Source: Lasiosphaeria ovina
Lineage: Eukaryota; Ascomycota; Sordariomycetes; Sordariales; Lasiosphaeriaceae
Assembly: GCA_033439765.1 (NCBI GenBank)
Contig: JAULSN010000012.1
Location: 372,001-436,000 of the forward strand
DNA length: 64,000 nucleotides
Direction: 5' to 3'
Shown here: positions 25,947-51,081 of the stretch, piece by piece
How positions within the stretch are numbered: the stretch's first letter is position 1
How the letters are laid out: every line of letters starts with the position of its first letter
Notes under the pieces: generated by a model
Told to the model about the DNA's origin: nothing
The model's database searches: none
The model's input: the letters and a program-made list of their open reading frames with translations, nothing else
Made by a program: the position numbers and the translations under genes

Positions 25947-26190
25947 TGTTACGGTACGGCCGAACTGAGGTCCGTGGTGCCGCAACCATGCCCTAGCTGT
26001 AAGCCCTGATGTGAAGGCCCCACTCCTCCCAATCGGGACTAGGGCCACGACCCCGCACACCACCACAAAACTGCCAGCCTGCAGGGCACGCAGGCTTCTT
26101 CTTTTCCTTTTCCTTTCTTTAGCTTAGTTATCTACGAATCTAGTCACTATTTACTTGCAGCCTCGCCTCTTGTATGTGCCTGCCTTCACA
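25947..26190 (+). repeat. right LTR of the Gypsy element
   Basis: 244 bp, TGTTACGG...TTCACA, preceded by the polypurine tract and followed by the GGCCG duplication (26191-26195). Confidence 0.93.
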
Positions 26191-27438
26191 GGCCGCTGCC
26201 GAAGGGAGGATACGGTTTGAGAGCGCTGTGGGCCTAGTTGTGGGCCTGAGGGAGGTCTTTGGGGGCACTTCAAGGCCCAGGCTTGGTGTAGGCCACTATA
26301 GTTAATATAACTAAGCGGCTTTTTTATTGTTTTTTCCCAGCAATGCATTGAGGAGTGGCCTGGTCGGCTATAGAAGCTATAGATCTGGGGCTTAGTATAA
26401 GTACTAGCGATATAGCTGAAGCCAAAGCACCGGTAGCACTATATCACCCCTGATCTAGGCTTTCTAGTAGGTAGGGCTGGCTGTGTGGCTGGCTGTGTGG
26501 CTGGCTGTGTGGCTGGCTGTGTGGCTGGCTACGTAGTTGGCTGCGTGGCTGGCTTAGGGACCTGATTTTCGAGGATTCATACTCGGAGAGCCTACGCCCC
26601 GAGAGCTATATGCTTCATGTAGTTGAAAAGGACCTTTATAGTATCATAGGGATATATATCTCCTTTTTCTTCATAGTTCCATTCTATAAGCTAGTCAAAT
26701 AGCCACGCAGCCAGCCACGCAGCCAGCCACGCAGCCAGCCACGCAGCCAGCCACGCAGCCGGCCACGCAGCCAGCTACACAGCCAGCCACACAGCCAGCC
26801 ACACAGCCAGCCACACAGCCAGCCACACAGCCAGCCCTACCTACTGGAAAACCTAGATCAGGGGTAATACAGTGCTATCGATGCTTTGGCTTCGGCCATA
26901 TCGCTAGCACTTGTACTGGGCCCCAGATCTGTGGCTTCTGTAGCCGGCCAGGCCACCTCTCAACGCAATGCCAGGAAAAAGTAACGAAAAAGCCGCCAAG
27001 TTGCATCAACTGTAGTGGTCTACACCAAGCCTAGGCCTTAAAGTGCCCCCAAAGACCTCCCTCAGGCCCGGAACCAGGCCCACAACGCTCTCAAGCCGCA
27101 TCCTCGCCTCGGCAGCGGCCTACCTACGCCGAGGTTGCTAGTAGGCAGCTAATTCGTAAGGCAGCCGGCTAACCAGCCGGCCAACTAGCCCGCTAGGTAG
27201 CCCGCCAACTAGTCCGCCAGTTACGCGAGGATTCCCTAGCTACTATCTTATAGTTAGTTTTAAAACTACTATAAAATAGATAGCTTAGCTTAATTACCGT
27301 TCCTCTCCTTTCCTTCCTTACCCTCCTCTTAAGTACATAATACCTTATACGCTTTAACTTGAAAAACGTATACGGAACCGGAATTATACTTCGCCTAGGA
27401 TTTTCTACCTCTAGTATACCCTATTAGACTAGTCTTTC

Positions 27439-29185
27439 AGGGCCAGTTCTAAACCCCGCTGTTAAGACTCTGGAACAGAAACACGAAGACTCGCATTTGG
27501 TTCAAAACAGCACCAAAATCGACGAAAGCGACATCAATCAATTGCCCTCGACGAGCTTTCAACGCCTACGCAATGGCTGCACCGCGCGGCCAGTTGCGCG
27601 GGCGTATGGAGGGTCGAAAAGCAAAGCAATTGGGCCCAAAGACCGACGATGAAGATTCTTCAGACGACCTGCCGGACCCACCGCAGATTACGGAACTTCC
27701 CGAAAGCCCCACCTTAACCCAATGGGCTAGAATCAGCCAAGCAAAAGCCACCAAAAAAGCCACCCAAAAAGCCACCCAAAAATCCACCACCCACAAAGCC
27801 AACCCGGCAGCTAAAGCCACAGTCACAGCCACGGCCATAGCCACAGCCACCAACCCCGCAGCCAACCATGCAGCCACCAACCCCGCAGCCAACCACGCAG
27901 CCACCAACCCCGCAGCCAACCACGCAGCCACCAACCCCGCAGCCAACCACGCAGCCACCAACCCCGCAGCCAACCACGCAGCCAACCACGCAGCCACCCA
28001 CGCAGCTACCTATATAGCTAGCTATATAGGGAACCGCTTGAAGAAGAACCCCCTCGAGGCAAAAAGCCCTTACGAAGAAGATACTAAAATTGAGGATATC
28101 ATTCCAAAGGACCTATGGGAAGATATGGCTATGATGTGGCCATATCTACCATTCGACCAGCTCATGAAATGGAACCACGAAGGAAAAGAAGATATATATC
28201 CCTACGATACGATAAAGGTCCTTTTCAACTGTATGAAGCATATGGCTCTCGGAGTACAGGCTCTCCGAGTACGAGCCTTTGAAAAGCAGGCTTCTAAGCC
28301 GGCCACGCAGCCAGCCACGCAGCCAGCCACGCAGCCAGCTACGCAGCCGGCCACACAGCCGGCCATACGGCCAGCCACACAGCCAGCCACGCAGCAAGCC
28401 ACTCAATTAGCCACGCAGCCAGCCACACAGCCAGCCACACAGCCAGCCACACAGCCAGTCACACAACCAGCCACACAGCCAGCCCTACCTACTGGAAAAC
28501 CTAGATCAGGGGTAATACAATGCTACCGATGCTTTGGCTTCGGCCATATCGCTAGCACTTGTACTGGACCCCAGATCTGTGGCTTCTGTAGTAGGCCAGG
28601 CCACCTCTCAACGCAATGCCAGGAAAAAGCAACAAAAAAGCCGCCTAGTTGCATCAACTGTAGTGGCCTACATCAAGCCTGGGCCTTGAAGTGCCCCCAA
28701 AGACCTCCCTTAGGCCCGGAACCAGGCCCACAACGCTCTCAAGCCGCATCCTCGCCTCAGCAGCGGCCTACCTACGCCGAGGTTGCTAGTAGGCAGCCAA
28801 TTCGCAAGCCCGCCGGCCAACCAGCCGGTCAACCAGCCCGCCAGGTAGCCCGCCAACCAGTCCGCCAGCTACGCGAGGATTCCCTAGCTACTATCTTGCA
28901 GTTGGTTTTAAAACTACTACAAAATAGATAGCTTAGCTTAATTACCCTCTCTCCCTTTCCTTACTTACCCTCCTTTTAGGTACATGATACCTTACACGCT
29001 TTGACTTGAAAAAAGTACACGGAACCGGAATTATACTTCGTCTAGGATTTTCTACTTCTAGTATGCCCTATTAGATTAGTCTTTCCTTATAACCTTTTGA
29101 GTAGCCGTCTATAGCTTAAATAGGCCGCGTCATAGCCCTACGGGCTGCATACGCGTAATGAGAAAAAAAAAAAAAAAAAAAAAAA
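27439..29185 (+). mobile_element. element A copy 3, full length with intact ORF
   Basis: A 1.75-kb insertion framed by a perfect 12-bp target duplication GACTAGTCTTTC (27427-27438 and 29186-29197) inside the tail of A copy 2. The canonical A 5' end (GAACA..GAAACACGAAG) begins at ~27473, preceded by 34 nt not found at other A 5' ends. It has a 5' UTR of ~100 nt, one ORF, the tail shared with LINE-B (28977-29160) and poly(A) of ~23. The 12-bp duplication and poly(A) show target-primed reverse transcription. Confidence 0.93.
27573..28931 (+). CDS. ORF1/gag-like zinc-knuckle protein of element A (copy 3), 452 aa
   Basis: This is the only ORF of the element. The N-terminus (1-90) begins MAAPRGQLRGRMEGRKAKQL and is charged, with an acidic patch EDSSDDLPD. 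Residues ~91-148 are tandem ATNPAANHA repeats. Residues ~150-240 form a unique conserved domain (PLEAKSPYEEDTKIEDIIPK, LWEDMAMMWPYLPFDQLMKW) I cannot assign. Residues ~245-310 are ATQP repeats from a 12-bp GCCACGCAGCCA minisatellite. Residues ~316-375 carry three zinc knuckles: CYRCFGFGHIASTC and CGFCSRPGHLSTQC (both CX2CX4HX4C) and a variant CINCSGLHQAWALKC. The tail contains PTYAEVASRQ and a QPAGQPARQ repeat. A nucleic-acid chaperone/RNP role is inferred from the knuckles and from ORF1 proteins of Tad-like LINEs. No RT or endonuclease follows. Confidence 0.85.
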   Translation: MAAPRGQLRGRMEGRKAKQLGPKTDDEDSSDDLPDPPQITELPESPTLTQWARISQAKATKKATQKATQKSTTHKANPAAKATVTATAIATATNPAANHAATNPAANHAATNPAANHAATNPAANHAATNPAANHAANHAATHAATYIASYIGNRLKKNPLEAKSPYEEDTKIEDIIPKDLWEDMAMMWPYLPFDQLMKWNHEGKEDIYPYDTIKVLFNCMKHMALGVQALRVRAFEKQASKPATQPATQPATQPATQPATQPAIRPATQPATQQATQLATQPATQPATQPATQPVTQPATQPALPTGKPRSGVIQCYRCFGFGHIASTCTGPQICGFCSRPGHLSTQCQEKATKKPPSCINCSGLHQAWALKCPQRPPLGPEPGPQRSQAASSPQQRPTYAEVASRQPIRKPAGQPAGQPARQVARQPVRQLREDSLATILQLVLKLLQNR

Positions 29186-29287
29186 GACTAGTCTTTCCTT
29201 ATAACTTTCTAAGTAGCCGTCTATAGCTTAAATAGGCCGCGTCATAGCCCTACGGGCTGCATACGCGTAATAAGAGAAAAAAAAAAA

Positions 29288-29603
29288 GCCAGCCACATAG
29301 CCAACCACACAGCCAACCACGCAGCCGGCCACATAGCCGGCTACACAGCCAGCTACAAAGCCAGCCACATAGCCAGCCATATAGCCAGCCACATAGCTAG
29401 CCCTACCTACTGGAAAACCTAGATCAGGGGTAATATAGTACTATCGATACTTTGGCTTCGGCCATATCGCTAGTACTTATACTAGGCCCCAGATCTATGG
29501 CTTCTATAGCCGGCTAGGCCACCTCTTAACATAATACCAGGAAAAAGTAACGAAAAAGCCGCTAAGTTATATTAACTATAGTAGTCTACACCAAGCCTAG
29601 GCC
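29288..29603 (+). mobile_element. element A copy 4, left part (RIP-mutated)
   Basis: Plus-strand A sequence from the ATQP minisatellite through the zinc-knuckle coding region, cut at 29603 by a LINE-B T-run. Aligned by eye to the intact copy at 32760-32950, differences are almost all CA-to-TA or TG-to-TA (e.g. GTAATATAGTACTATCGATA against GTAATACAGTGCTATCGATG), i.e. RIP. The element appears to resume at 48754. Confidence 0.75.
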
Positions 29604-31359
29604 TTTTTTTTTCTTTTTTTTTCTCTCATTACGCGTATGCAGCCCGTAGGGCTATGACGCGGCCTATTTAAGCTATAGACGGCTACTCAAAAGGTTATAA
29701 GGAAAGACTAATCTAATAGGGCATACTAGAAGTAGAAAATCCTAGACGAAGTATAATTCCAGTTCCGTGTACTTTTTTCAAGTCAAAGCGTGTAAGGTAT
29801 TATATACCTAGGGGGTAAACAAAGGAAAATAAAGAAAATACAATACAGATATAGGAAATAGTTCAAAGATCGTTTATAGCCAGGTTTTCCTCGCTCCATC
29901 TCGCTATACAGATTCCTATACTACCTAGGTAGCCCCCTAGGGCCTGTCTTCCCTTCGTAGTATAATACAGGGTCTATAGAGAGGGTAGGAGGCCCTATAA
30001 GGCCTTCTTCAGTACTTTCTATTACAAACCGCTCGACTGTGTGGGTCAAGGTTGTATCGTGCACAGGCACTGGGGGTCTGAGAAGTAGATATGAAGAATG
30101 AACAAAGGGCAAGCTCCTATTACACGGGTAATATAGTCAAACTGAGTTTGCCACTCAAAGTATATGAGTGTAGAGAATGTATATTGCTTGCTTGAGGAAC
30201 TAAGCAAGCTCTATCTAAGACCGTGGCTACGGTCATCGTATATACCTATCTTTAGTAGCTAATAAGAGCCCAGCTCTTACTTGCCTACCGTGTCGGTATT
30301 ACCTAGCACTGAGTAGTACCAGGTGGTCGGGCAACCGCTTGCCCGGTGCTAAGCAATACCCTCCTGCCGGGCACATCCTAATTGGTCGGGCAACTACGCG
30401 CCCGGCGTCAGCCAAGCTTTCCTCGCCGGGCAGACGCCAATTGGCAGGGCGGGTCCCACACCGGACCTCCCCGCACGTGCAGGCTGCCCAGTATGTGACG
30501 GGTTCCGTAACACTTTCCTCTCTTCCTTATACCGCTTATAGTATAGTAGGAGGTGTATGGGTATCTCTTTTTGTGTGTAGTCTGCTCCCCTACACTCACT
30601 TGATTCGATTTTTCCAATCTTCGCTAGGTAGGTAGCTAGGTATCCTATCCCGGTCTTCAACTGGGTATAGGCCGATTGGTTCGGCCTTGGTAGGTTCGGT
30701 ATAGTTGGTTTTACACTGTAGGTTATCAGGCCCTGTGCAACCCTTCTATAGTGAGTACCTATGCCTTTTGGTCGTAGGCCTATAGCCTCCCGCTCTTCTT
30801 CGGCTTTCCAGTCGGCTTTCCATGCCTCCTTTATAGCCTTTTTTGCTTGCCTTCGTAGGTAGGCCATAGATACGTAGTAGTTTGTTTTTCTACCACTTTC
30901 TAGGCCTCTTTTAGCTAGGGTATCGGCAATTTCGTTACCTTCAATACCTACGTGGCTAGGGCACCAGTGTATTTGAACTTTGTGGCCTTTCTTCCAGAGT
31001 AGGTTAATCAGGCTATTAGCTTCCTGTGCGTGGTAGCTATAGCCCTGTAGCCTCTGTATTGCGGCCTGGCTGTCAACGAAGATATAGAAGGTTACTTTCT
31101 CTTCCTTTTGCCTTTGCCCTTGTATTTTCCAGGCCTGTTTGAGGGCCTGTACTATAGCTATAACCTCGGCATCGGCTACTTCTATGGCAGGGCCTAGATT
31201 CCAGTATCCTATTCTTATAGGGGCCAAATTTGCACTTAGCCTACATACTGCAGCCGAATTCGTAGGCCTACCCTGTATTGTGCCCTGTGAACCATCTGTA
31301 TAGAAGGCCGATTTTGGTGCTGTTTTGAACCAAATGCGAGTCTTCGTGTTTCTGTGTTC
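29604..31359 (-). mobile_element. LINE-B copy 1, 5'-truncated, with chimeric element-A 5' end
   Basis: On the minus strand it reads a 51-nt element-A 5' leader (31309-31359), then LINE-B ORF2 sequence from FYTDGSQGT onward (RNase H; VTFYIFVDSQAAI and IHWCPSHVGIEGNEIADTLA visible), a solo LTR (30020-30512), the end of ORF2, the 3' tail and poly(A) (T-run from 29604). The A leader fused directly to an internal LINE-B site indicates template switching during reverse transcription. Confidence 0.85.
30020..30512 (-). repeat. solo LTR inserted in LINE-B copy 1
   Basis: 493 bp which on the minus strand begins TGTTACGG and ends GTAATA, flanked by the 5-bp duplication CTTTC (30015-30019 and 30513-30517). 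It interrupts the ORF2 C-terminus. A diverged homologue lies at 49869-50303. No internal retroelement sequence is left, so this is a solo LTR from LTR-LTR recombination (inference). Confidence 0.85.
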
Positions 31360-31490
31360 TTTTTTCGAACTTAACTATACCGCACTAGTAGTAATTAGTT
31401 CAGGGTGGTCATTCGATATATAGGGATCAATCGTATCCGAGGCTACGCCTACTAAATAGTTCTCGATATACGCTATATATACGCGGTCGG
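31360..31490. other. 131-bp segment between LINE-B copies, unassigned
   Basis: AT-rich DNA between the chimeric LINE-B copy 1 and the first sequence common to both long LINE-B copies (AGACCTTCAAACG, ~31491). It may be extra 5' UTR of the plus-strand LINE-B or pre-existing target DNA. The other long copy has different sequence at this position. Confidence 0.4.
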
Positions 31491-31831
31491 TAAGACCTTC
31501 AAACGTAATGTACAAGAGATGGGTAACTTCAAATACCCAAAGGATATGGCTACGGCTACGGCTACGGCTATAGATACGGCTACGGCTACGGCTACGGCTA
31601 CGGCTACGGCTACGGCTACAGCTACGGCTACGGCTACGGCCAAACCATCGGCTACGGCTACGACTACGCCTATAGCTACGCCTATGGCTACGGCTACGGC
31701 TACGGCTACGACCAAACCTACGGCTAAGCGAACACAGAAACACGAAGACTCGCATTTGGTTCAAAACAGCACCAAAATCGACGAAAGCGACATCAATCAA
31801 TTGCCCTCGACGAGCTTTCAACGCCTACGCA

Positions 31832-33205
31832 ATGGCTGCACCGCGCGGCCAGTTGCGCGGGCGTATGGAGGGTCGAAAAGCAAAGCAATTGGGCCCAAAG
31901 ACCGACGATGAAGATTCTTCAGACGACCTGCCGGACCCACCGCAGATTACGGAACTTCCCGAAAGCCCCACCTTGACCCAATGGGCTAGAATCAGCCAAG
32001 CAAAAGCCACCAAAAAAGCCACCCAAAAAGCCACCCAAAAATCCACCACCCACAAAGCCAACCCGGCAGCCAAAGCCACAGTCACAGCCACGGCCATAGC
32101 CACAGCCACCAACCCCGCAGCCAACCATACAGCCACCAACCCCGCAGCCAACCACGCAGCCACCAACCCCGCAGCCAACCACGCAGCCACCAACCCCGCA
32201 GCCAACCACGCAGCCAACCACGCAGCCACCAACCACGCAGCCACCAACCACGCAGCCACCCACGCAGCTACCTATATAGCTAGCTATATAGGGAACCGCT
32301 TGAAGAAGAACCCCCTCGAGGCAAAAAGCCCTTACGAAGAAGATACTAAAATTGAGGATATCATTCCAAATGACCTATGGGAAGATATGGCTATGATGTG
32401 GCCATATCTACCATTCGACCAGCTCATGAAATGGAACCACGAAGGAAAAGAAGATATATATCCCTACGATACGATAAAGGTCCTTTTCAACTGTATGAAG
32501 CATATGGCTCTCGGAGTACAGGCTCTCCGAGTACGAGCCTTTGAAAAGCAGGCTTCTAAGCCGGCCACGCAGCCAGCCACGCAGCCAGCCACGCAGCCAG
32601 CTACGCAGCCGGCCACACAGCCGGCCATACGGCCAGCCACACAGCCAGCCACGCAGCAAGCCACTCAATCAGCCACGCAGCCAGCCACTCAGTCAGCCAC
32701 GCAGCCAGCCACACAGCCAGCCACACAGCCAGTCACACAGCCAGCCACACAGCCAGCCCTACCTACTGGAAAACCTAGATCAGGGGTAATACAGTGCTAT
32801 CGATGCTTTGGCTTCGGCCATATCGCTAGCACTTGTACTGGGCCCCAGATCTGTGGCTTCTGTAGCCGGCCAGGCCACCTCTCAACGCAATGCCAGGAAA
32901 AAGTAACGAAAAAGCCGCCAAGTTGCATCAACTGTAGTGGTCTACACCAAGCCTGGGCCTTGAAGTGCCCCCAAAGACCTCCCTCAGGCCCGGAACCAGG
33001 CCCACAACGCTCTCAAGCCGCATCCTCGCCTCAGCAGCGGCCTACCTACGCCGAGGTTACTAGTAGGCAGCCAATTCGCAAGCCCGCCGGCCAACCAGCC
33101 GGTCAACCAGCCCGCCAGGTAGCCCGCCAACCAGTCCGCCAGCTACGCGAGGATTCCCTAGCTACTATCTTGCAGTTGGTTTTAAAACTACTACAAAATA
33201 GATAG
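31832..33205 (+). CDS. ORF1/gag-like zinc-knuckle protein of element A (copy 5), 457 aa
   Basis: Co-linear with the copy at 27573-28931 and nearly identical in its unique regions (one visible difference IIPNDLWEDM for IIPKDLWEDM). It differs in the number and order of ATNPAANHA and ATQP repeat units, hence 457 instead of 452 residues. All zinc-knuckle ligands (CYRCFGFGHIASTC, CGFCSRPGHLSTQC, CINCSGLHQAWALKC) are kept. The open state in the middle of a RIP-prone genome suggests recent insertion. Confidence 0.85.
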   Translation: MAAPRGQLRGRMEGRKAKQLGPKTDDEDSSDDLPDPPQITELPESPTLTQWARISQAKATKKATQKATQKSTTHKANPAAKATVTATAIATATNPAANHTATNPAANHAATNPAANHAATNPAANHAANHAATNHAATNHAATHAATYIASYIGNRLKKNPLEAKSPYEEDTKIEDIIPNDLWEDMAMMWPYLPFDQLMKWNHEGKEDIYPYDTIKVLFNCMKHMALGVQALRVRAFEKQASKPATQPATQPATQPATQPATQPAIRPATQPATQQATQSATQPATQSATQPATQPATQPVTQPATQPALPTGKPRSGVIQCYRCFGFGHIASTCTGPQICGFCSRPGHLSTQCQEKVTKKPPSCINCSGLHQAWALKCPQRPPSGPEPGPQRSQAASSPQQRPTYAEVTSRQPIRKPAGQPAGQPARQVARQPVRQLREDSLATILQLVLKLLQNR

Positions 33206-33413
33206 CTTAACTTAATTACCCTCTCTCTCCCTTTCCTTACTTACCCTCCTTTTAGGTACATGATACCTTACCCGCTTTGACTTGAAAAACGTACACGGAA
33301 TAAGAACCTTACTTTGTATAGGACTTTGGCTAGGATTTTCTACCTCTAGTATGCCCTATTAGATTAGTCTTTCCTTATAACCTTTTGAGTAGCCGTCTAT
33401 AGCTTAAATAGGC

Positions 33414-33443
33414 CGCGTCATAGCCCTACGGGCTGCATACGCG
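33414..33443 (+). other. 3'-terminal stem-loop shared by element A and LINE-B (exemplar)
   Basis: CGCGT (33414-33418) pairs with ACGCG (33439-33443), and an inner AGCCC (33422-33426) pairs with GGGCT (33430-33434) across a TAC loop. The hairpin lies just 5' of TAATGAG and the poly(A). The same structure occurs in all eleven tails of the island, on A and B elements alike. A role as the RT recognition hairpin is inferred from other LINE/SINE tail-sharing systems. Confidence 0.7.
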
Positions 33444-36400
33444 TAATGAGAAAAAAAAAAAAAAAAAAACCTACGGCTACGACCAAACCTACGGCTACGC
33501 CTAAGGCTACGCCTGTGGCTACGCCTATGGCTACGCCTATGGCTACGCCTGTGGCTACGCCTATGGCTACGCCGATGGCTACGCCGATGGCTACGCCGAT
33601 GGCTACGCCGATGGCTACGCCGATGGCTACGCCGATGGCTACGCCGATGGCTACGCCGATGGCTACGCTGATAGCTACGCCTAAGACTACGCCTAAGGCT
33701 ACGGCTACAACTAAGGAAGATATAGAAGACCTACAGCCCCCCCGGGAGCCTAGGGAGCCCTATATTCCCTTAACGGAGGCTAGTAATACTAGTGCTCGCT
33801 ACGAAAGTAGCACCCCTATAAGCGGTATTACGACCCAAGAAGAGAGGCAGTCCGGCTTATACAGCTCCGGGGGCACTATAGAAGGAGGTGCTGGCCCCGG
33901 AGGTATAGGCTTAGAAAATCTGGCCACAGGCTTACAATCTACGGATTTAGACCCCCCAGAAGGACTAGTAGGGCCCAAGTCGAAAGACCGTGGCCCTCGA
34001 CCCGGTATTCAACTTACCAACTCTTCAAGGGAGTCTACTGCTATAGAAGGCCCTGTGGAGGGCCCCGTTGGCCCTACTCCCCCGCAGAAGCAACCCCTGC
34101 CCCCCCCCAAGCACAATAACAAACCCCCGGAGGGTAGTATGCTAGCTACGGCTAAAGAAGAAAAAGCCCAGGCCCAAGCACTACTACAACGATCGTTATA
34201 CCTCGTAAAAGAAGCCAACACACTACTACCGAGATATAGTAGTATAGTAGAAAGCCTAGAGCAAGCCATAGCTACTACGGCTAATACTACTACTATTACT
34301 ACTACTACTACTCCTAGGAAAATAGTACCTAAGAAAACGTACGCCGAGGTAGTAGCCACGAACCAACTACCGAAGCCTACGCAAAAGGGTACTACGATTA
34401 CTACTAGTATAAGTAGTAGAAAGGATAACAAGATAGTAGTACTACTCGATAAAGAATCTTCGAATATACCTATAATTGACTCAAAGGCTATAAGAGACCA
34501 AATTAATAAGGCTCTGAACGCTATAGTAGTCGCTAAGGTAGAAATATCGCAGAAAAACAACATAGTCATCACAACCGTAAACCAATCAGCAAAGCAGCTG
34601 CTAGAAGCAAAAGAAAAGTGGCGAAACTGCCTTAGCGGTTGGCCTATTCGAAGTATAGAGGAACCAGCTACCTGGCTCAAACTAGTAGCTTATAAAGTAC
34701 CTATATACGAAGCTAGAGAGGGCTTTAGTTCCTTCAAGGCCGAATGTAAAGAGTATAATAGCTTCGAAGTCCAAGGCGAGCCAAGATGGCTAGTTCAACC
34801 AAAAGAAGGCCAGTATTACGGCTCCGTAGTATTCGCAGTAGCTACGAAGGCCCAGAGCAACCTACTACTAAAGGATGGCCTAACTATGGCCGGGACCGCC
34901 CTAAAAGTAGTAAATTACAGGCCTTATTCTACCTCAACGCAGTGTAGAAGATGCCAAGGCTTCGGGCATAACCAAGAGACCTGTAAGAAGCCGGTAGCAT
35001 GTAGGGTATGTGCCAAAGGCCACGATACCGAAAGGCATAGCTGCCCTGTATGCAAAAATACAGGGCCCTGCGAGCATATAGTAGCGAAGTGTAAGAACTG
35101 CGATAAAAACCACGAATCGAACAGCCCTGACTGCGAGGCCGTAAAAGCCTTGAGGCCGGCCCAAAGGCCAGCCCAGGCCCAGCCCACGCAGCCCACACAG
35201 CCTACGAAGCCTACGAAGCCTACGCAGCCTACGCAGCCTACGCAGCCTAAGCAGCCTAAGCAGCCCAAGCAGCCTACGCAGCCTACGCAGCCTACGCAGT
35301 ATACAGACCCTACCCAAAACCTATGGGAATAAAGGTCCTACAACACAATACGAATAGACAAAGTACGGCCCACCAAACGGCCTTAGAACTAGCCTTCAAG
35401 AACCAAGTAGACGTAATACTACTACAGGAGCCGTACTACTCAGGGAAGCCAAATAGCTACTATACTATTAGCCACCCTGCCTTCTATATAATTCTTCCAC
35501 AACCAAAAATGGGTATATTACGGCCAAGAGTGATTACTTATATAAGGAAGAATAACCTTGAATTCACCCCTAGATACGACCTCTGTAATGACCTAGATTG
35601 GCAGATTATAGAGGTCCTTGGCAAAGAAACCTTCTATATAATCAACGTCTATAACGAAAAGGAAAGACTACCCTATAAGGAAGGCCAAAAACAAGCTGAA
35701 TTACTAGGCCGTACAACGGTAAATAGAGCTATATAGTACTATACCAGATAAGCCTATAGTAATAGCCGGGGACTTCAACTTACACCACCATTGGTGGAAC
35801 TGCATAGCGGATCCTACTAAGGTAGCGAACGCATCCAGCTTAGTAGAGTGGTTAAACAGTCAAAAAGCCAGCCTACTAGTTGATCCAGAAGTTATAGAGG
35901 AAAAAGGAGGCACCTTTCATAGGCCCAATCTCCAACAAACCTCTATAATAGACCTAGCCTTCGTGACCCCCTTCAAAAGAACAAAATGGGGGAACTGGGC
36001 TTACCTAGAGGCCACAGGATCGGACCACGAAGCTATAGTATTCGAAGCCTACTACTCAAATTCAAATTGGGTAAAAAAAGATACTATACTACCGGCATAT
36101 AACTATAGTAAGGCCGATTGGGAAGTCTTTGAAAAAGAGCTAAAATCCAGAGAAGAAGAAGCTATAGAAGACATCGAAGAAGCTATAGGCCAAGAAAACT
36201 GGGATAATATAGCCTATACCCTAACTAAGGCCATTTCTATAGCGGCCAGCACAGCTATACCGAAGAAAAGAACGGTAGAAAGGTCAAAACCCTGGTGGAC
36301 AGAAGACCTAACCGAGCTAAGAAAAACACTGCATACTGCACAGAGGGTATATAAGAAGACCCTAACGGTAGAAACCGAGAAGGCCTTCAAAATAGCCCGA

Positions 36401-39400
36401 AATCAGTACTTCCACGCCGTAAGAGAAGCAAAACAAAACCACTGGCAGGAATTCCTAGCAAAGGCTGAAGGAAAGGAGGCATTCAGAGCCCTAGACTATA
36501 CGAAGGCCAAATTCAACGCCAAAATACCAGTAATACGGTATACGGAAGAGGGCAAGGAAAAAGAAGCCATTACCTTTGACGAAAAGTGTAAAGCCTTCCT
36601 AACTACCCTATTTCCGGAACCTATAACTAGAACTAGGCTAGAAGACCCCCAACTAGAACCGAGAACGAGAAGAAAGTGGGAATGGCCGGAGCTAAAGCCT
36701 ATTGAAGTAGAAAGAGCCATATTTACTTCAAACCCAAATAAGGCGCCCGGCCCAGATAGATTGAGCTTCACGGTACTACAAAAGGCCTATACTATAGTAC
36801 CGGACCTCTTCTATAAGGCCTATAAAGGACTGTTTGATAGAGGTATACACCCGAATAGCTGGAAAGAAAGTATCGGTATAATACTACCTAAACCAAATAA
36901 GGTAGATTATACTATACCCAAGGCATATAGGGTTCTAGCCTTACTCAACTGCCTGAGTAAAGTACTAGAGAAAATCTACGCTACTAGACTTGGCTACCTG
37001 GCAAATAGTAGGCCGGATCTACTACACCAAACACAACTAGGAGGCCGGAAACAAAGGTCAGCAGTTGATACGGCTTTACTTCTACAACACTGCGTCCAAC
37101 AGCAAAGAAAAGGCTATATTACGTCTACAGTTTTCCTCGATATCAAGGGCGCGTTCGACCACGTATCAAAAGATAGACTACTAGATGTACTACATATACT
37201 AGACCTACCTAAGACCCTCATTAGCTGGGTAGAGTCGTTTTGTAGCCACAGGAAGATTCAACTAGCGTTTGAAGGCCAGGCCCAGCCGGTAAGACCAGTC
37301 AATACCGGTATACCACAAGGATCACCTATTTCGCCTATATTATTCCTACTCTACGCAGGGAATATAGTAGCCGAAAGGGGTCTCCAACTGTCCTATATTT
37401 TTTTTATTTTTTTCTCTCATTACGCGTATGCAGCCCGTAGGGCTATGACGCGGCCTATTTAAGCTATAGACGGCTATCTAGAAAGTTATAAGGAAAGACT
37501 AATCTAATAGGGCATACTAGAGGTAGAAAATCCTAGCCAAAGTCCTATACAAAGTAAGGTTCTTATTCCGTGTACGTTTTTCAAGTCAAAGCGGGTAAGG
37601 TATCATGTACCTAGGGGGTAGACAAAGGAAAATAAAGGAAAATAAAGGAAAAATGAAATATAGACATAGGAAAAAGGTTCAAAGATCGTTTGTAGCCGGG
37701 TTTTCCTCGCTCCATCTCGCTGTACAGATTCCTGTACTACTCAGGTAGCCCCCTAAGGCCTGTCTTCCCTTCGTAGTATAATACAGGGTCTGTAAAGTGG
37801 GTGGGAGGCCCTGTAAGGCCTTCTTCAGTGCTTTCCTCTCTTCCTTATACCGCTTGCAGTATAGTAGGAGGTGTGTGGGTGTCTCTTTTTGTATGCAGTC
37901 TGCTCCCCTGCAGTCACTTGATTCGATTTTTCCAATCTTCGCTAGGTAGGTAGCTAGATATCCTATCCCGGTCTTCAGCTGGGTATAGGCTGATTGGTTC
38001 GGCCTTGGTAGGTTCGGTATAGATGGTTTTGCACTGTAGGTTATCAGGCCCTGTGCAACCCTTCTATAGTGAGTGCCTAAGCCTTTTGGTCGTAGACCTA
38101 TAGCCTCCCTCTCTTCTTCGGCTCTCCAGTCGGCTTTCCATGCCTCCTTTATAGCCTTTTTTGCTTGCCTTCGTAGGTGGGCCATAGATACGTAATAGCT
38201 TGTTTCTCTACTACTTTCTAGGCCTCTTTTAGCTAGGGTATCGGCAATTTCGTTGCCTTCGATGCCTACGTGGCTAGGGCACCAGTGTATTTGAACTTGG
38301 TGACCTTTCTTCCAGAGTAGGTTAATAAGGCTATTAGCTTCCTGTGCGTGGTAGCTATAGCCCTGTAGCCTATATATTGCAGCCTGGCTGTCGACGAAGA
38401 TATAAAAGGTTACTTTCTTTTGCCTCTGCCTCTGCCTCTGTATTTTCTGAGACAGTTCTAGGGCCAGTTCTAGGGCCCGTACTATAGCTATAACTTCGGC
38501 ATCGGCTACTTCTATGGCAGGGCCTAGATTCCAGTATCCTATTTTTATAGGGGCCAAATTTGCACTTAGCCTACATACTGCAGCCGAATTCGTAGGCCTA
38601 CCCTGTATTGTGCCCTGTGAACCATCTGTATAGAAGGCTACTTTAGAAGCGTTCGAGGCCGGTGCTAAGTGTGGTTTTATAGCTTTGAATAGCTGAAGGT
38701 GTTCCTTTTTGGCTTCCTTTTTTCCACTACTCGATATATGGATTTGAGCCTTGGTAGGTTCGGCCCATGGTGCTTCCCAATATGCTAGGGGCCTTTCTAT
38801 ATTCCAGCTGTCCTTTACTAGCCTATTCAGCCTATTGATAAGGTTTAGAAGCTGTGTAGAGGGCTGTAAGCTGGGGATTAGGGCTAGGTCGTCCCCGCTA
38901 CCTAGTTCATCCTGTACTTCGTTATATAGGGCTTGTTTTACTGGATGGTCCTTCTGGAATAGTAGTATTCTTAGGCTGTAGCTATTGCAGGCCTTTTCGA
39001 ATCTTACTTCTGGTGGTGGTATTGCTGCCTCTATTTCCAACGCCTTATACGGGGATCCTTTGAAGGCCCCTAGTATTTGCTTAGTAGCTAGGTTTTGAAG
39101 CCGTTGGTATAGTTTGACTAGATGACCTTGGCCTCGGCCTTTGGCCTGGCCTTTCCACCAGAGCTGTATGCCGTAGTCCGCTACCGAGGTTACGCAGGCT
39201 ATATATAGTTGACGTAGGGCCCTCAACGATAGGCCTTTTTGTGTTGAGCCTAGTCGTTGTATACCGTAGTATATAGCCGTAGCCGCGTTTACCTTCTTAG
39301 TAACGTGGTCTTTGAAGTTGAGCTTGTAATCGAAGTGGATCCCCAGCCACTTGACTACTTCCTTAGGCTTGAACTCTAAGCCTCCAATAGTAATAGGGTC

Positions 39401-40721
39401 AACTATTGGCTTCCTTTTTGTATGGAAGTGGATTAATTCGGTCTTTACCGAGTCAAATTCAACGGCCTTCTTTTCCGCTTGGTTGAACAACTGGGCTACT
39501 ATAGCTTCTAGTAGTATACAGTTCCTTCTAGCTGATCTAGATGATACTGAAATACTGAAGTCGTCTATATAGGACAGCTGGAGACCCCTTTCGGCTATTA
39601 TGTTCCCTGCGTAAAGTAGGAATAATATAGGCGAAATAGGTGATCCTTGCGGTATACCGGTATTGACTGGCCTTATTGGCTGGGCCTGGCCTTCAAACGC
39701 TAGTTGAATTTTCCTATGGCTACAAAACGACTCTACCCAGCTGATGAGGGCCTTGGGTAGGTCTAGTATCTGTAGTACGTCTAGTAGCCTATCCTTTGAT
39801 ACGTGGTCGAATGCACCCTTAATATCGAGGAAAACCGTAGACGTAATATAGCCTTTTCTTTGCTGTTGGACGTGGTGTTGTAATAGTAAAGCCGTATCAA
39901 TTGCTGACCTTTGTTTCCGGCCTCCTAGTTGTGTTTGGTGTAGTAGATCCGGCCTACTATTTGCTAGGTAGCCAAGTCTAGTAGCGTAGATTTTCTCTAG
40001 TACTTTACTCAAGCAATTAAGCAAGGCTATAACCCTATATGCCTTAGGTATAGTATAATCTACCTTATTTGGTTTAGGTAGTATTATACCGATACTTTCT
40101 TTCCAGCTATTCGGGTGTATACCTCTATCAAACAGTCCTTTATAGGCTTTGTAGAATAGGCTCGGTACTATAGTATAGGCTTTCTGTAGTACCATAAAGT
40201 TTAATCTATCTGGGCCAGGCGCCTTGTTTGGATTTGAAGTAAATATGGCCTTTTCTACTTCAATAGGCTTTAGTTCAGGCCATTCCCACTTTCTTCCTAT
40301 TTTTGGTTCAGGTTCATGGTCAGGGTCTTCCAGCCTAGTCCTAGTTATAGGTTCCGGAAATAAGGTAGTTAGGAAGGCTTTACACTTTTCGTCAAAGGTA
40401 ATAGCTTCTTTTTCCTTACCCTCTTCCGTATACCGTATTACTGGTATTTTGGCGTTGAACTTGGTTTTGGTGTATTCCAGGGCTTTGAATGCTTCTTTTC
40501 CTTCAGCCTTTGCTAGGAATTCCTGCCAGTGGTTTTGTTTTGCTTCTCTCACAGCGTGGAAGTACTGATTACGGGCCATTTTGAAGGCCTTCTCGGCTTC
40601 TACCGTCAGGGTCTTTTTATATACCCTTTGTGCAGTATGTAGGGTCCTTCTTAGCTCGGTTAGGTCTTCTGACCACCAGGGTTTTGACCTTTCTACCGTT
40701 CTTTTCTTCGGTATAGCTATA

Positions 40722-42618
40722 TTTTTTTTTTTTTTTTTCTCTCATTACGCGTATGCAGCCCGTAGGGCTATGACGCGGCCTATTTAAGCTATAGACGGCT
40801 ATCTAGAAAGTTATAAGGAAAGACTAATCTAATAGGGCATACTAGACGTAGAAAATCCTAGCCAAAGTCCTATACAAAGTAAGGTTCTTATTCCGTGTAC
40901 GTTTTTCAAGTCAAAGCGGGTAAGGTATCATATACCTAAAAGGAGGGTAAAAGAGGAAAGGAGAGGGAGGGTAATCAAGCTAAGCTATCTATTTTGTAGT
41001 AGTTTTAAAACTAACTGCAAGATAGTAGCTAGGGAATCCTCGCGTAGCTGGCGGACTGGTTGGCGGGCTACCTGGCGGGCTGGTTGACCGGCTGGTTGGC
41101 CGGCTGGCTTGCGAATTGGCTGCCTACTAGCAACCTCGGCGTAGGTAGGCCGCTGCCGAGGCGAGGATGCGGCTTGAAAGCGTTGTGGGCCTGGTTTCAG
41201 GCCTGGTTCCGGGCCTGGTTCCGGGCTTGAGGGAGGCCTTTGGGGGCACTTCAAGGCCCAGGCTTGGTGTAGTCCACTACAGTTGATGCAACTAGGCGGC
41301 TTTTTTGTTGCTTTTTCCTGGCACTGCGTTGAGAGGTGACCTGGCTTACTACAGAAGCCACAGATCTGGGGTCCAGTACAAGTGCTAGCGATATGGCCGA
41401 AGCCAAAGCATCGGTAGCACTGTATTACCCCTGATCTGGGTTTTCCAGTAGGTATGGCTGGCTGTATAGCTGGCTGTGTGGCTGGCTGTATGGCTGGCTG
41501 TGTGGCTGGCTGCGTGGCTGGCTGTGTGGCCGGTTGCGTGGCTGGCTGGGTGGCTGGCTGGGTGGCCGGCTGCGTGGCTGGCTGCGTGGCTGGCTGTGTG
41601 GCCGGCTGCGTGGCTGGCTGCGTGGCTGGCTGTGTGGCCGGCTGTGTGGCCGGCTGCGTGGCTGGCTGTGTGGCCGGCTGCGTGGCTGGCTGCGTGGCTG
41701 GCTGTGTGGCCGGCTGTGTGGCCGGCTGCGTGGCTGGCTGCGTGGCTGGCTGCGTGGCTGGCTGCGTGGCTGGCTGCGTGGCTGGCTGCGTGGCTATCTT
41801 TGTGGCTGTGGCTGGCTGTGTGGCGGGCTTGGGAGCCTGCTTTTCGAAGGCTCGTACTCGGAGAGCCTGTACCCCGAGAGCCATATGCTTCATACAGTTG
41901 AAAAGGACCTTTATAGTATCATAGGGATATATATCTTCTTTTCCTTCGTGGTTCCATTCCATGAGCTGGCCAAATGGTAGATATGGCCATATTATAGCCA
42001 TATCTTCCCATAGGTCCTTTGGAATAATATCTTCAATTTTGGTATCTTTTTCGTAGGGGCTTTTTGCCTCGAGGGGGTTCTTCTTCAAGCGGTTCGCTAT
42101 ATAGCTAGCTATATAGGTAGCTGCGTGGGTGGCTGCGTGGTTGGTGGCTGCGTGGTTGGCTGCGTGGTTGGTGGCTGCGTGGTTGGCTCCGGGGTTGGTG
42201 GCTGTTTGGTTGGCTGCGGGGTGGGTGGCTGTAGCTGTGGCCGTGGCTGTGACTGTGGCTTTGGCTGCCGGGTTGGCTTTGTGGGTGGTGGATTTTTGGG
42301 TGGCTTTTTGGGTGGCTTTTTTGGTGGCTTTTGCTTGGCTGATTCTAGCCCATTGGGTTAAGGTGGGGCTTTCGGGAAGGTCGGGAAGTCTCGTGATCTG
42401 CGGTGGGTCCGGCAGGTCGTCTGAAGAATCTTCATCGTCGGTCTTTGGGCCCAATTGCTTTGCTTTTCGACCCTCTATACGCCCGCGCAACTGGCCGCGC
42501 GGTGCAGCCATTGCGTATGCGTTGAGAGCTAGTCGAGGGCAATTGATTGATGTCGCTTTCGTCGATTTTGGTGCTGTTTTGAACCAAATGCGAGTCTTCG
42601 TGTTTCTGTGTTCCGGAT
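40722..42618 (-). mobile_element. element A copy 6, full length with intact ORF
   Basis: Inserted in ORF2 of LINE-B copy 3 with a perfect 12-bp duplication GGTATAGCTATA (40710-40721 and 42619-42630). T-run 40722-40738 is the poly(A); the tail is of the GGAATAAGAACC subtype, the same as its host LINE-B. The canonical A 5' end lies at 42613 (minus), preceded by 5 extra nt (42614-42618). Confidence 0.95.
40985..42511 (-). CDS. ORF1/gag-like zinc-knuckle protein of element A (copy 6), 508 aa
   Basis: Same architecture as the copies at 27573 and 31832, but the ATQP minisatellite is greatly expanded (about 30 units, ~41450-41810), making this the longest version. The ATNPAANHA block is shorter. 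The unique domain reads LWEDMAIIWPYLPFGQLMEW. Zinc knuckles CYRCFGFGHIASTC and CGFCSKPGHLSTQC are intact. The C-terminus has a duplicated GPEPG unit. The ORF end LATILQLVLKLLQNR is identical in all intact copies. Plus-strand ORFs over this region are shadows of the repeat. Confidence 0.85.
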   Translation of the reverse strand: MAAPRGQLRGRIEGRKAKQLGPKTDDEDSSDDLPDPPQITRLPDLPESPTLTQWARISQAKATKKATQKATQKSTTHKANPAAKATVTATATATATHPAANQTATNPGANHAATNHAANHAATNHAATHAATYIASYIANRLKKNPLEAKSPYEKDTKIEDIIPKDLWEDMAIIWPYLPFGQLMEWNHEGKEDIYPYDTIKVLFNCMKHMALGVQALRVRAFEKQAPKPATQPATATKIATQPATQPATQPATQPATQPATQPATQPATQPATQPATQPATQPATQPATQPATQPATQPATQPATQPATQPATQPATQPATQPATQPATQPATQPATQPAIQPATQPAIQPAIPTGKPRSGVIQCYRCFGFGHIASTCTGPQICGFCSKPGHLSTQCQEKATKKPPSCINCSGLHQAWALKCPQRPPSSPEPGPEPGLKPGPQRFQAASSPRQRPTYAEVASRQPIRKPAGQPAGQPARQVARQPVRQLREDSLATILQLVLKLLQNR

Positions 42619-43543
42619 GGTATAGCTATATTAGACGCCGTAGTAATAGCCTTAGTTAGGGTCTGGGCTATGCTATCCCAGTCTTCTAGGCCTATAGCTT
42701 CTTCAATGTCCTCTATAGCTTCTTCCTCTCTAGATTTTAGCTCTTTTTCAAAGACTTCCCAGTCGGCCTTACTGTAGCTATATGCCGGTAGTATAGTATC
42801 CTTCTTTACTATATTTGAATAGCGGGCTTCGAATACTATAGCTTCGTGGTCCGACCCTGTGGCCTCCAGGTAAGCCCAGTTACCCCATTTTGTTCTTTTG
42901 AAGGGGGTTACGAAGGCTAGGTCTATTATAGAGGTTTGTTGGAGGTTTGGTCTATGAAAGGTGCCTCCTTTTTCCTCTATAACTTCTGGATCAACTAGTA
43001 GGCTGGCTTTCTGATTATTCAACCATTCTACTAAGCTGGATGCGTTCGCTACCTTAGTAGGATCCGCTATGCAGTTCCACCAATGGTGGTGAAGGTTGAA
43101 GTCCCCGGCTATTACTACGGGCTTATCCGGTATATAGTACTGTATAGCCCTATTTACCGTTGTACGGCCTAGTGATTCAGCCTGTTTTTGGCCTTCCTTA
43201 TAGGGTAGTCTTTCCTTTTCGTTATAGACGTTGATTATATAGAAGGTTTCTTCGCCAAGGACCTCTATAATTTGCCAATCTAGGTCATTACAGAGGTCGT
43301 ATCGAGGGGTGAATTCAAGGTTATTCTTCCTTATATAAGTAATTACTCTTGGCCTTAGTATACTTATTTTTGGTTGTGGAAGAATTGTATAGAAAGCAGG
43401 GTGGCTAATAGTATAGTAGCTATTTGGCTTCCCTGAGTAGTACGGTTCCTGTAGTAGTATTACGTCTACTTGGTTCTTGAAGGCTAGTTCCAGGGCCGTT
43501 TGGTGGGCCGTACTTTGTCTATTCGTATTGTGTTGTAGGACCT

Positions 43544-45569
43544 TTATTCCCATAGGTTTTTGGTAGGGTCTGTATACTGCGTAGGCTGCGTAGGCTGCGT
43601 AGGCTTCGTAGGCTTCGTAGGCTGTGTTGGCTGCGTAGGCTGGGCCTGGGCTGGCCTTTGGGCCGGCCTCAAGGCTTTTACGGCCTCGCAGTCAGGGCTA
43701 TTCGATTCGTGGTTTTTTTCGCAGTTCTTACACTTCGCTACTATATGCTCGCAGGGCCCTGTATTTTTGCATACAGGGCAGCTATGCCTTTCGGTATCGT
43801 GGCCTTTGGCACATACCCTACATGCTACCGGCTTCTTACAGGTCTCTTGGTTATGCCCGAAGCCTTGGCATCTTCTACACTGCGTTGAGGTAGAATAAGG
43901 CCTGTAATTTACTACTTTTAGGGCGGTCCCGGCCATAGTTAGGCCATCCTTTAGTAGTAGGTTGCTCTGGGCCTTCGTAGCTACTGCGAATACTACGGAG
44001 CCGTAATACTGGCCTTCTTTTGGTTGAACTAGCCATCTTGGCTCGCCTTGGACTTCGAAGCTATTATACTCTTTACATTCGGCCTTGAAGGAACTAAAGC
44101 CCTCTCTAGCTTCGTATATAGGTACTTTATAAGCTACTAGTTTGAGCCAGGTAGCTGGTTCCTCTATACTTCGAATAGGCCAACCGCTAAGGCAGTTTCG
44201 CCACTTTTCTTTTGCTTCTAGCAGCTGCTTTGCTGATTGGTTTACGGTTGTGATGACTATGTTGTTTTTCTGCGATATTTCTACCTTAGCGACTACTATA
44301 GCGTTCAGAGCCTTATTAATTTGGTCTCTTATAGCCTTTGAGTCAATTATAGGTATATTCGAAGATTCTTTATCGAGTAGTACTACTATCTTGTTATCCT
44401 TTCTACTACTTATACTAGTAGTAATCGTAGCACCCTTTTGCGTAGGCTTCGGTAGTTGGTTCGTGGCTACTACCTCGGCGTACGTTTTCTTAGGTACTAT
44501 TTTCCTAGAAGTAGTAGTAGTAGTAATAGTAGTAGTATTAGCCGTAGTAGCTATGGCTTGCTCTAGGCTTTCTACTATACTACTATATCTCGGTAGTAGT
44601 GTGTCGGCTTCTTTTACGAGGTATAACGCTCGTTGTAGTAGTGCTTGGGCCTGGGCTTTTTCTTCTTTAGCCGTAGCTAGCATACTACCTTCCGGGGGTT
44701 TATTATTGTGCTTGGGGGGGGGGCAGGGGTTGCTTCTGCAGGGGAGTAGGGCCAACGGGGCCCTCCACAGGGCCTTCTATAGTAGTAGACTCCCTTGAAG
44801 AGTTGGTAAGTTGAATACCGGGTCGAGGGCCACGGTCTTTCGACTTGGGCCCTACTAGTCCTTCTGGGGGGTCTAAATCCGTAGATTGTAGGCCTGTGGC
44901 CAGATTTTCTAAGCCTATACCTCCGGGGCCAGCACCTCCTTCTATAGTGCCCCCGGAGCTGTATAAGCCGGACTGCCTCTCTTCTTGGGTCGTAATACCG
45001 CTTATAGGGGTGCTACTTTCGTAGCGAGCACTAGTATTACTAGCCTCCGTTAAGGGGATATAGGGCTCCCTAGGCTCCCGGGGGGGCTGTAGGTCTTCTA
45101 TATCTTCCTTAGTTGTAGCCGTAGCCTTAGGCGTAGTCTTAGGCGTAGCCATAGGCGTAGCCATAGGCGTAGCCATCGGCGTAGCCATAGGCGTAGCCAT
45201 AGGCGTAGCCATAGGCGTAGCCATAGGCGTAGCCATCGGCGTAGCCATCGGCGTAGCCACAGGCGTAGCCTTAGGCGTAGCCGTAGGTTTGGTCGTAGCC
45301 GTAGGTTTGGTCGTAGCCGTAGCCGTAGCCGTAGCCATAGGCGTAGCCATAGGCGTAGCCGTAGCCGTAGCCGTAGCTGATGGTTTGGCCGTAGCCGTAG
45401 CCGTAGCTGTAGCCGTAGCCGTAGCCGTAGCCGTAGCCGTAGCCGTAGCCGTAGCCGTATCTATAGCCGTAGCCGTAGCCGTAGCCATATCCTTTGGGTA
45501 TTTGAAGTTACCCATCTCTTGTACATTACGTTTGAAGGTCTTCATAGGCCTCATTTGCGGGGGGGGCAC
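43544..45569 (-). pseudogene. LINE-B copy 3 ORF1, frameshifted in a homopolymer
   Basis: Reads MGNFKYPKDMATATATAIDT (start about 45512, with an upstream in-frame extension to 45569), TATA and MATP repeats, then the same core and three zinc knuckles as copy 2, ending NLWE at 43544. The frame changes at a run of 10 G (44714-44723 region; C on the minus strand), where copy 2 has 9 C (34090-34098). The protein is therefore split into 45569-44703 and 44755-43544. A real mutation, ribosomal slippage or a base-calling error at the homopolymer are all possible. Confidence 0.75.
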
Positions 45570-50303: not shown

Positions 50304-51081
50304 TTATATGCTTCATATAGTTGAAAAGGACCTTTATCGTATCGTAAGGATATATATCTTCTTTTCCCTCGTGGTTCCATTCCATAAGCTGGTCGAATAG
50401 TAGATTTGGCCATATCTTAGCCATATCTCTCCATAAGTCCTTTGGAATAATATCTTCAATTTTGGTATCTTCTTCGTAGGGGCTTTTCGCTTCTAAGGGG
50501 TTCTTCTCAAAGCGTTTCGCTATATAGCTAGCTATATAGCTCGCCGTATTATCAGCCGCAAGGCTAGTATTACAGCTAGCTATACGGCTAGTTATATTAG
50601 TAGATGTATGGTTGGCTGCGTGGTTGGCTATGTGGTTGGCTACGTGGTTGGCTGCGTAGTTGGCTGCGCGGTTGGCTGCGGGGTTGGTGGCTACGTGGTT
50701 GGCTGCGGGGTTGGTGGCTGTGGCTGTGGCTGTGGCTGTGATTGTGGCTATGGCTGCGGGGTTGGCTTTGTGCGCGGTGGATTTTTGGGTGGCTTTTTGG
50801 GTGGCTTTTGCTTGGCTGATTCTAGCCCATTGGGTCAAGGTGGGGCTTTCGGGAAGTTCCGTGATCTGCGGTGGGTCCGGCAGGTCGTCTGAAGAATCTT
50901 CATCGTCGGTCTTTGGGCCCAATTGCTTTGCTTTTCGACCCTCTCTGCCCCCGCGCAACTGGCCGCGCGGTGCAGCCATTGCGTAGGCGTTGAGAGCTAG
51001 TCGAGGGCAATTGATTGATGTTGCTTTCGTCGATTTTGGTGCTGTTTTGAACCAAATGCGAGTCTTCGTGTTTCTATGTTC
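50304..51081 (-). mobile_element. element A copy 7, 5' part only
   Basis: On the minus strand it starts with the canonical A 5' end (GAACATAGAAACACGAAG, 51081) and the 5' UTR, then the A ORF from MAAPRGQLRGGREGRKAKQL (50979) to the LWRDMAKIWPNLLFDQLMEW domain, broken at 50304 by the LTR. The ORF reads on into the LTR (50140). A diverged insert with TASYIASYIAKR precedes the conserved domain. It could be the missing 5' half of copy 1, displaced by the nested stack, but the two overlap by about 90 bp. Confidence 0.8.

Follow-up and report, generated by a model that had tools for sequence, protein, structure and literature searches.

A candidate ORF1-only retroelement that shares its 3' tail with a neighbouring LINE

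Retroelements that encode only a Gag- or ORF1-type protein are already known from mammals (HAL1) and Drosophila (HeT-A). The present analysis concerns a candidate of this kind, element A, found in a 64,000-nucleotide stretch of DNA (the window, part of contig C4 of a 51.7-Mb genome in 32 contigs that we take to be fungal). Its neighbour there is LINE-B (B), a long interspersed nuclear element (LINE) that bears a reverse transcriptase (RT). A is very likely an element with a single open reading frame (ORF) of the ORF1 kind, mobilised in trans by B through a shared 3' tail and helped by its own protein. A literature search of partial coverage, which does not prove absence, found no fungal Gag/ORF1-only element with a conserved ORF.

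Zinc knuckles define the Gag of HeT-A, and A has the same Gag-only capacity with knuckles. HeT-A occupies Drosophila telomeres with its partners TART and TAHRE; it encodes Gag and no RT, and negative selection on its Gag has been reported (PMC5537684). A resembles it in coding for a Gag-type protein only and in sharing its arrays with RT-bearing relatives. HeT-A is added to chromosome ends, whereas A lies internal to contigs and has target-site duplications (TSDs). Set beside HeT-A, A is near-identical in its 3' tail to its partner B. In mammals, L1 selects RNA chiefly by poly(A), and A differs in sharing a specific tail with B. HAL1 (half-L1) is described as a non-autonomous L1 derivative that codes for ORF1p only (PMC5753468). 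A likewise codes for an ORF1-type protein without an ORF2, but its ORF is not derived from the ORF1 of the LINE that would mobilise it. The original prediction had called A HAL1-like, which fits its mode of life and not its descent, the A ORF resembling B ORF1 only in the knuckles. A works like HeT-A or HAL1, yet misses a defining feature of each.

In eel-type pairs of short interspersed nuclear elements (SINEs) and LINEs, the non-autonomous element ends in the LINE's 3' sequence, and A carries a LINE's 3' tail in the same way. SINEs are not known to have a conserved ORF, and A differs in having one. Where a SINE is a short non-coding RNA with an RNA polymerase III-type head, A has a conserved ORF of 441–508 amino acids (aa), and an Rfam scan of the window at the gathering cut-off gives no match.

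Among the fungal cases compared, MoTeR2 of Magnaporthe telomeres is the closest. Its RT region is replaced, it shares its termini with MoTeR1 (860 bp at the 5' end and 77 bp at the 3' end) and probably uses the MoTeR1 RT, and its own 786 bp have no obvious function (PMC7367193). A, by comparison, has only the 3' tail in common with its partner, its ORF is conserved and it lies inside contigs. Magnaporthe also has chimeras of MGL, WEIRD and Mg-SINE, attributed to template switches, one of them tripartite with 14-bp direct repeats (PMC2104539). The A-B chimeras described below resemble them, although no TSDs were found on any A-B chimera; WEIRD is a non-coding RNA, whereas A encodes a protein and has a fixed 5' end of its own. 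Nested or clustered LINEs are known from Coccomyxa (Zepp, one cluster per chromosome at putative centromeres; PMC3446292) and Chlamydomonas (ZeppL; PMC8226300). The available parts of these two sources mention no ORF1-only partner, and the A/B pattern is one nest per contig rather than one per demonstrated chromosome. FoTeR is a telomere-associated RT-bearing family (PMC12857005), and a further source serves as background only (PMC2881922).

Intact A measures 1.7–1.9 kb from head to poly(A) and has a constant order: a leader of about 102 nucleotides (nt), the single ORF, about 47 nt of its own 3' untranslated region (UTR), the tail equivalent to that of B, and poly(A). The protein contains a conserved central domain, three CCHC knuckles and a YAEV motif. 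The knuckles match zf-CCHC with a score under Pfam's cut-off, and a PDB profile search with A gives 15 matches up to E 0.1, mainly nucleocapsid-type knuckles; the remaining few look like low-complexity matches. At least six A copies had been predicted, those with complete 5' ends starting at the same site, and both points are confirmed. The window holds four headed copies (27475, 31730, 42613 and 51081) besides headless pieces (Table 1), and the head motif gives four window matches at no more than three mismatches, against none expected from 100 shuffles. Genome-wide, the 5' end is constant within a few bases, while flanks differ from copy to copy and few are shared. The three intact ORFs reported earlier (452, 457 and 508 aa) are each followed by a B-type tail and poly(A). 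Two details had to be corrected: copy 1 starts at 27475 rather than 27439, positions 27439–27474 being flank that follows an older A fragment with a truncated tail, and the head at 31359 (minus strand) belongs to an A-B chimera, in which the first 51 nt of A run into the RNase H region of B ORF2 and on through the B tail.

The genome-wide search for the A head gives 43 matches, a lower bound with 40 of 45 candidates scored. Contigs C16 and C17 (27 kb each) nearly copy C23 at about 1.446–1.473 Mb, with frame-breaking differences, and are probably redundant assembly products; as such, their six head matches were not counted, which leaves 37. Across the genomic stretches analysed, 39 headed A units were parsed, and intact ORFs lie behind 16 of these heads (tally drawn from 27 units). 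TSDs are present in 10 of the 26 units with both ends readable (C16 and C17 units excluded), with lengths of 9–12 nt without the As of the poly(A), or 9–14 nt counting up to three As. In the control, 5 of 644 mismatched flank pairs reach 9 nt, among them the pair of units 6 and 23, whose flank is shared. Together with 5' truncated and tail-only copies, the poly(A) 3' end and the short, variable TSDs give A the features of a non-long-terminal-repeat (non-LTR) retrotransposon. The cores at C2:930045, C23:1459159 and C23:1494262 are 100% identical, each with its own 10–12 nt duplication, which indicates that A has moved recently. Within the window, copy 2 sits in B1 ORF1 and copy 3 in B2 ORF2; these A copies, nested in B ORFs with target duplications, are insertions and not halves of a single element. 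For copy 1 a clean TSD was not found (4 nt without the poly(A) As). A is copied through RNA as a unit, shares a tail of the B kind and resides together with B.

The tail itself exists in two natural variants. Type I has 186 nt (184 in one diverged copy), and type II has 198 nt owing to a 12-nt insertion, accompanied by a substitution block. The survey covered 46 tail ends, of which 31 belong to A, 6 to B and 9, assignable to neither, were dropped; both types are present in A and in B, and an additional B copy (L075) also carries type II. In A and B alike, the shared stretch starts at TAGGTAC behind a pyrimidine-rich run. The earlier description of a tail of about 185 nt of the B kind is right about the sharing and wrong about a single form. 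A has the hallmark of a tail-sharing LINE parasite, a 3' tail homologous to that of a LINE.

Tails have also been exchanged. The bodies of units u23 and u24 (1552 and 1477 nt) are identical at 1465 of 1477 aligned positions, with 75 gap columns, while their tails agree at 175 of 187 positions and differ by a 12-nt indel: one tail is type I, and in the other the type II block gives way to a 3' half like that of type I. On a tree of 22 A bodies the tail types are intermixed, with several nodes poorly supported (units 15, 26 and 39 were left out as interrupted, and 13 and 22 because one piece of each was missing). Near-identical bodies with different tails, and types mixed on the tree, show that tail sequence was exchanged while the A body was kept. 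Besides the window chimera, a chimera on C12 starts with A and its poly(A) and continues into the end of B ORF2, then the B 3' UTR and tail. It occurs twice in inverted orientation (C12:6234569–6237711 and C12:6241778–6244914; 99.84% identical, 3151 bp), with flanks that differ on both sides, and this pair may have arisen by DNA-level duplication. Its ends are the A head (nt 1 and nt 8) and the B poly(A), as expected if a read-through RNA had been copied. A tail-only insertion, the last 61 nt plus poly(A), lies in a B ORF1 at C2:908462–908522, flanked by a TSD-like repeat of about 10 nt; the B ORF1 stretch around it is itself repetitive.

LINE-B, called Tad1-like in the original prediction, has an ORF1 and an ORF2 with EEP-type endonuclease, RVT_1 and RNase H domains, and stop-free B ORFs exist (ORF2 of 1317 aa, ORF1 of 723 aa). 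The A ORF had been described as unlike B ORF1 throughout, including the knuckles. This holds outside the knuckles, where there is no significant match, but a 77-aa knuckle stretch aligns with 32% identity (E 2e-8 in a two-sequence comparison). At the nucleotide level the A body has no match to B ORF1 or ORF2, and the 5' leaders differ apart from one weak 39-nt match of the A leader to the B 5' region (74%, E 0.006 in a tiny search). A as the ORF1 of B was rejected on these grounds, only the knuckles aligning.

The predicted lack of RT in A copies was pursued genome-wide by looking for a downstream RT, and none was found in 34 of 34 followable units. In all of them the tail begins 40–42 nt past the A ORF, which leaves no room for an RT between; for units 15 and 26 this was measured from the ORF end of a nested A. 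The other five of the 39 headed units end early (1 and 17, cut off by the sequence end), are interrupted or lost after the central part (9 and 39), or form a chimera (36). On the strength of these followable units and of the listed A-protein matches, the reading that A belongs to an RT-bearing element of this genome was likewise rejected.

The A ORF is under purifying selection. Where the 16 intact ORFs can be aligned, comparison with the majority codon finds 59 synonymous and 53 non-synonymous changes, a per-site substitution ratio of 0.28. A neutral simulation (1000 runs of random mutation that kept the base spectrum and context and discarded stops) has a mean of 0.70 (95% range 0.46–1.02), and none of its runs is as low as the observed ratio; the comparison of substitution rates proposed in the original prediction thus comes out as purifying. 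Constraint falls on the central domain (0.13) and the knuckles (0.14) and not on the C-terminal stretch (0.65). The pooled pairwise ratio for A ORFs is 0.21; pairwise counting for ten pairs of B ORF2 gives 0.17–0.38.

Relatives of the A protein occur on other public contigs. A whole-ORF homolog search gave 52 matches, of which five were inspected; most look like low-complexity PATQ sequence, and one was kept besides the window's own P0001. This is P0003 (272 aa, on a 1334-bp ENA contig), whose third knuckle is cut off. A second search added P0053 (260 aa, on a 1981-bp ENA contig), with a YAxV motif and a leucine-rich C-terminus. Both share the three knuckles and parts of the central domain with A, at 38–63% identity over part of the length, and a third search with the P0053 knuckles as query returned only these two. 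Judged by their sequences, they may come from other species, and their divergence suggests that the ORF family is probably older than the burst in this genome. Scans of viral-contig and genome-contig collections for A relatives found none. In the surveyed genome, P0053 has two matches outside the nests: C29:236135 (E 2.6e-11) and a weak one at C27:4562196–4562486 (E 3.7e-4). The C29 element (236.0–236.4 kb; L078 3024–3362) has inverted-repeat ends and resembles a small DNA element; its 46-codon piece, 63% identical to the P0053 central domain, seems to have been captured from a relative of A. A second A-type LINE at this place was considered and rejected, the match being 46 codons between inverted repeats.

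A and B are concentrated in eight nests: C1 (6.336–6.378 Mb), C2 (0.908–0.952 Mb), C4 (the window), C12 (6.228–6.251 Mb), C23 (1.457–1.499 Mb) and C27 (0.719–0.777 Mb), plus C16 and C17. All listed matches to the A protein, A head, B ORF2 and tail are confined to them, and so are the listed B ORF1 matches except three weak ones. These lists are lower bounds, with further A-protein matches beyond those listed and with 40 of 79 and 62 of 158 candidates scored in two further lists. The nests add up to about 0.5% of the genome: some 0.23 Mb if C16 and C17 are left out, 0.29 Mb if they are counted. They occur once each on C1, C2, C4, C12, C23 and C27, internal to the contigs (e.g. at 6.34 of 9.16 Mb on C1), and no listed A or B nest lies on C28 (4.1 Mb), C29 (3.6 Mb) or C30 (3.2 Mb). 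Exact TTAGGG arrays are found only on C8 and C24, and contig ends are not proven chromosome ends. The nests are candidates for centromeric or other special chromatin. One nest per contig is not claimed as proof of a centromere, since contigs are not chromosomes and the three contigs just named lack a listed nest; the Zepp clusters, described as one per chromosome, make the idea worth testing (PMC3446292).

These data are best accommodated by the following model. A would be a non-autonomous non-LTR retrotransposon with one Gag/ORF1-type protein, whose RNA would start at a fixed site. The endonuclease and RT of B would recognise the tail and copy A by target-primed reverse transcription, leaving the poly(A), short target duplications and 5' truncations seen in the genome. 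The A protein would bind the A RNA that made it and improve its copying; such binding in cis, by aiding the copying of its own RNA, would most simply explain why selection keeps the protein. The exchange that keeps A and B tails matched may have proceeded by template jumps in reverse transcription or by conversion between nested copies.

The original prediction of a protein-coding parasite mobilised through the B tail agrees with the TSDs, the selection, the shared tail types, the co-localisation and the chimeras, while the action of the B ORF2 enzyme on A RNA is something we infer. Several observations weigh against this model. A TSD of at least 9 nt is absent from 16 of the 26 units. The 3' part of the tail folds as an RNA hairpin of ordinary stability (z −0.85 to −1.35), and the structure prediction for A is too poor to use (mean pLDDT 36.6). 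RT sequences are not peculiar to the nests: the RVT_1 search gives 150 matches (150 of 187 candidates scored) spread genome-wide, most with stops, but with a few open copies away from the nests, on C28, C9 and C32 for instance. The intact ORFs are of recent shared ancestry and were picked for intactness, although the simulation discards stops too; neither circumstance can account for the contrast between regions, since these lie in the same copies. Part of the selection signal may also predate the loss of RT by A, a date tempered by the fact that the copies behind the counted differences are about 93–100% alike.

The origin of A allows a different emphasis. As a tentative possibility, A may have begun as the ORF1 part of a different LINE (C), still intact in other fungi; having lost ORF2 and acquired the B tail in this genome, it would be a deletion derivative and not an independent lineage of long standing. 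Its knuckles are of the Gag/LINE ORF1 kind, and the two short public contigs carry A-like ORFs whose downstream part is unreadable. On the other hand, all listed A-protein matches lie in A/B nests, every followable unit lacks an RT before its tail, and the outside matches of P0053 are the C29 piece, which is not a LINE, and the weak match on C27. Descent from such a LINE concerns ancestry and does not conflict with a tail-mediated mechanism. By contrast, it is very unlikely that A is a plain tail-borrowing retroposon with an incidental ORF and an idle protein. Tail-only pieces do insert in this genome too, but the low overall substitution ratio, the regional contrast, the number of intact ORFs and the recognisable ORF on other contigs all speak against idleness, and a mere tail-borrower was rejected on the substitution ratios. 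Repeated retrotransposition of A could also be replaced by duplication or exchange of the nests at the DNA level, as shared flanks (C2:929305 with C23:1481887, and C12:6230270 with C23:1459159) and the near-copies on C16 and C17 would allow; the distinct flanks and separate TSDs at 10 units, the fixed 5' end and the poly(A) at differing sites make this extremely unlikely.

Two further proposals extend the role of the A protein. It is rather unlikely that the protein serves B in trans as well, for instance by guiding the RNAs of both elements to the nests in a division of labour. The listed strong A and B matches do lie only in the same small part of the genome, and HeT-A Gag is reported as necessary for TART targeting (PMC5537684). 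B, however, has its own knuckle-bearing ORF1, open in some copies, and the nesting may reflect local tolerance of insertions or loss elsewhere. The still broader idea of A and B as a fungal counterpart of HeT-A and TART is unlikely; here a Gag-only and an RT-bearing element would exchange a 3' tail and share one nest per chromosome, possibly at the centromere, with the A protein steering both RNAs.

The nest in the window spans about 26–51 kb, with two retroelements nested in it, and its features are collected in Table 1.

Table 1. Features of the A/B nest in the window (TSD, target-site duplication; EN, endonuclease; MITE, miniature inverted-repeat transposable element).
Feature	Position	Strand	Details
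A copy 1	27475..29185	+	head 4 nt short; ORF 27573-28931, 452 aa
A copy 1, 3' end	28977-29162	+	type I tail, then poly(A)
A copy 2	31730..33469	+	in B1 ORF1; head 31730; ORF 31832-33205, 457 aa
A copy 2, 3' end	33253-33450	+	mosaic type II tail, then poly(A)
A copy 2, 5' TSD	31717..31726	+	CCTACGGCTA
A copy 2, 3' TSD	33470..33479	+	CCTACGGCTA
A copy 3	40722..42613	-	in B2 ORF2; head 42613; ORF 42511-40985, 508 aa
A copy 3, 3' end	40938-40741	-	type II tail, then poly(A)
A copy 3, 5' TSD	42619..42630	-	TATAGCTATACC
A copy 3, 3' TSD	40710..40721	-	TATAGCTATACC
A copy 4, 5' half	50306..51081	-	ORF broken; interrupted by MITE-like insert 49869-50303
Chimera, A part	31309..31359	-	A nt 1-51, fused at 31308 with the RNase H region of B ORF2
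Chimera, B part	29605..31308	-	ORF2 3' end, 3' UTR, type I tail, poly(A); 0.5-kb insert 30020-30512
Older A fragment	26710..27438	+	C-terminal part and truncated tail
Diverged A fragment	29287..29605	+	resumes at 48755-49108 past nested insertions
Further headless A pieces	26190-26554 and 19038
LINE B1	33489..37398	+	ORF1 33489-35332; ORF2 5' part 35323-37398; 5' piece at 31492-31726
LINE B1, continued	45630..47747	+	ORF2 3' part, 3' UTR, type I tail 47563-47747
LINE B2	37416..45634	-	in B1 RT; carries A copy 3; ORF1 45634-43577
LINE B2 ORF2	43553-42619 and 40720-37679	-	EN, RT, RNase H; type II tail 37613-37416

Some other sequences accompany these features. A repeat of about 0.45–0.5 kb, GC-rich at one end, is present both in the chimera (30020–30512) and in A copy 4 (49869–50303), and looks like a small non-autonomous DNA element. 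A 36-nt stretch at 47761–47796, 3' of the B1 poly(A), returns in inverted orientation some 0.5 kb later (about 48310–48350), and the sequence between has no A or B matches. Beside the nest lies an AT-rich RVT_1 match with stops (22990–23469; C4:394990–395469). The many broken RT copies elsewhere suggest, from their sequence, mutation resembling repeat-induced point mutation.

In the case of A the partner is clear, the tail it shares with that partner comes in two natural variants, and copies number in the dozens, some of them very recent. A provides a fungal test case for what an ORF1 protein contributes to the RNA encoding it where another element supplies the RT. It is also a test case for how the 3' ends of a LINE and of an element that depends on it stay alike, for which the tail swaps and the A-B chimeras point to exchange as the means. 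The confinement of A and B to a few nests is a lead on targeting.

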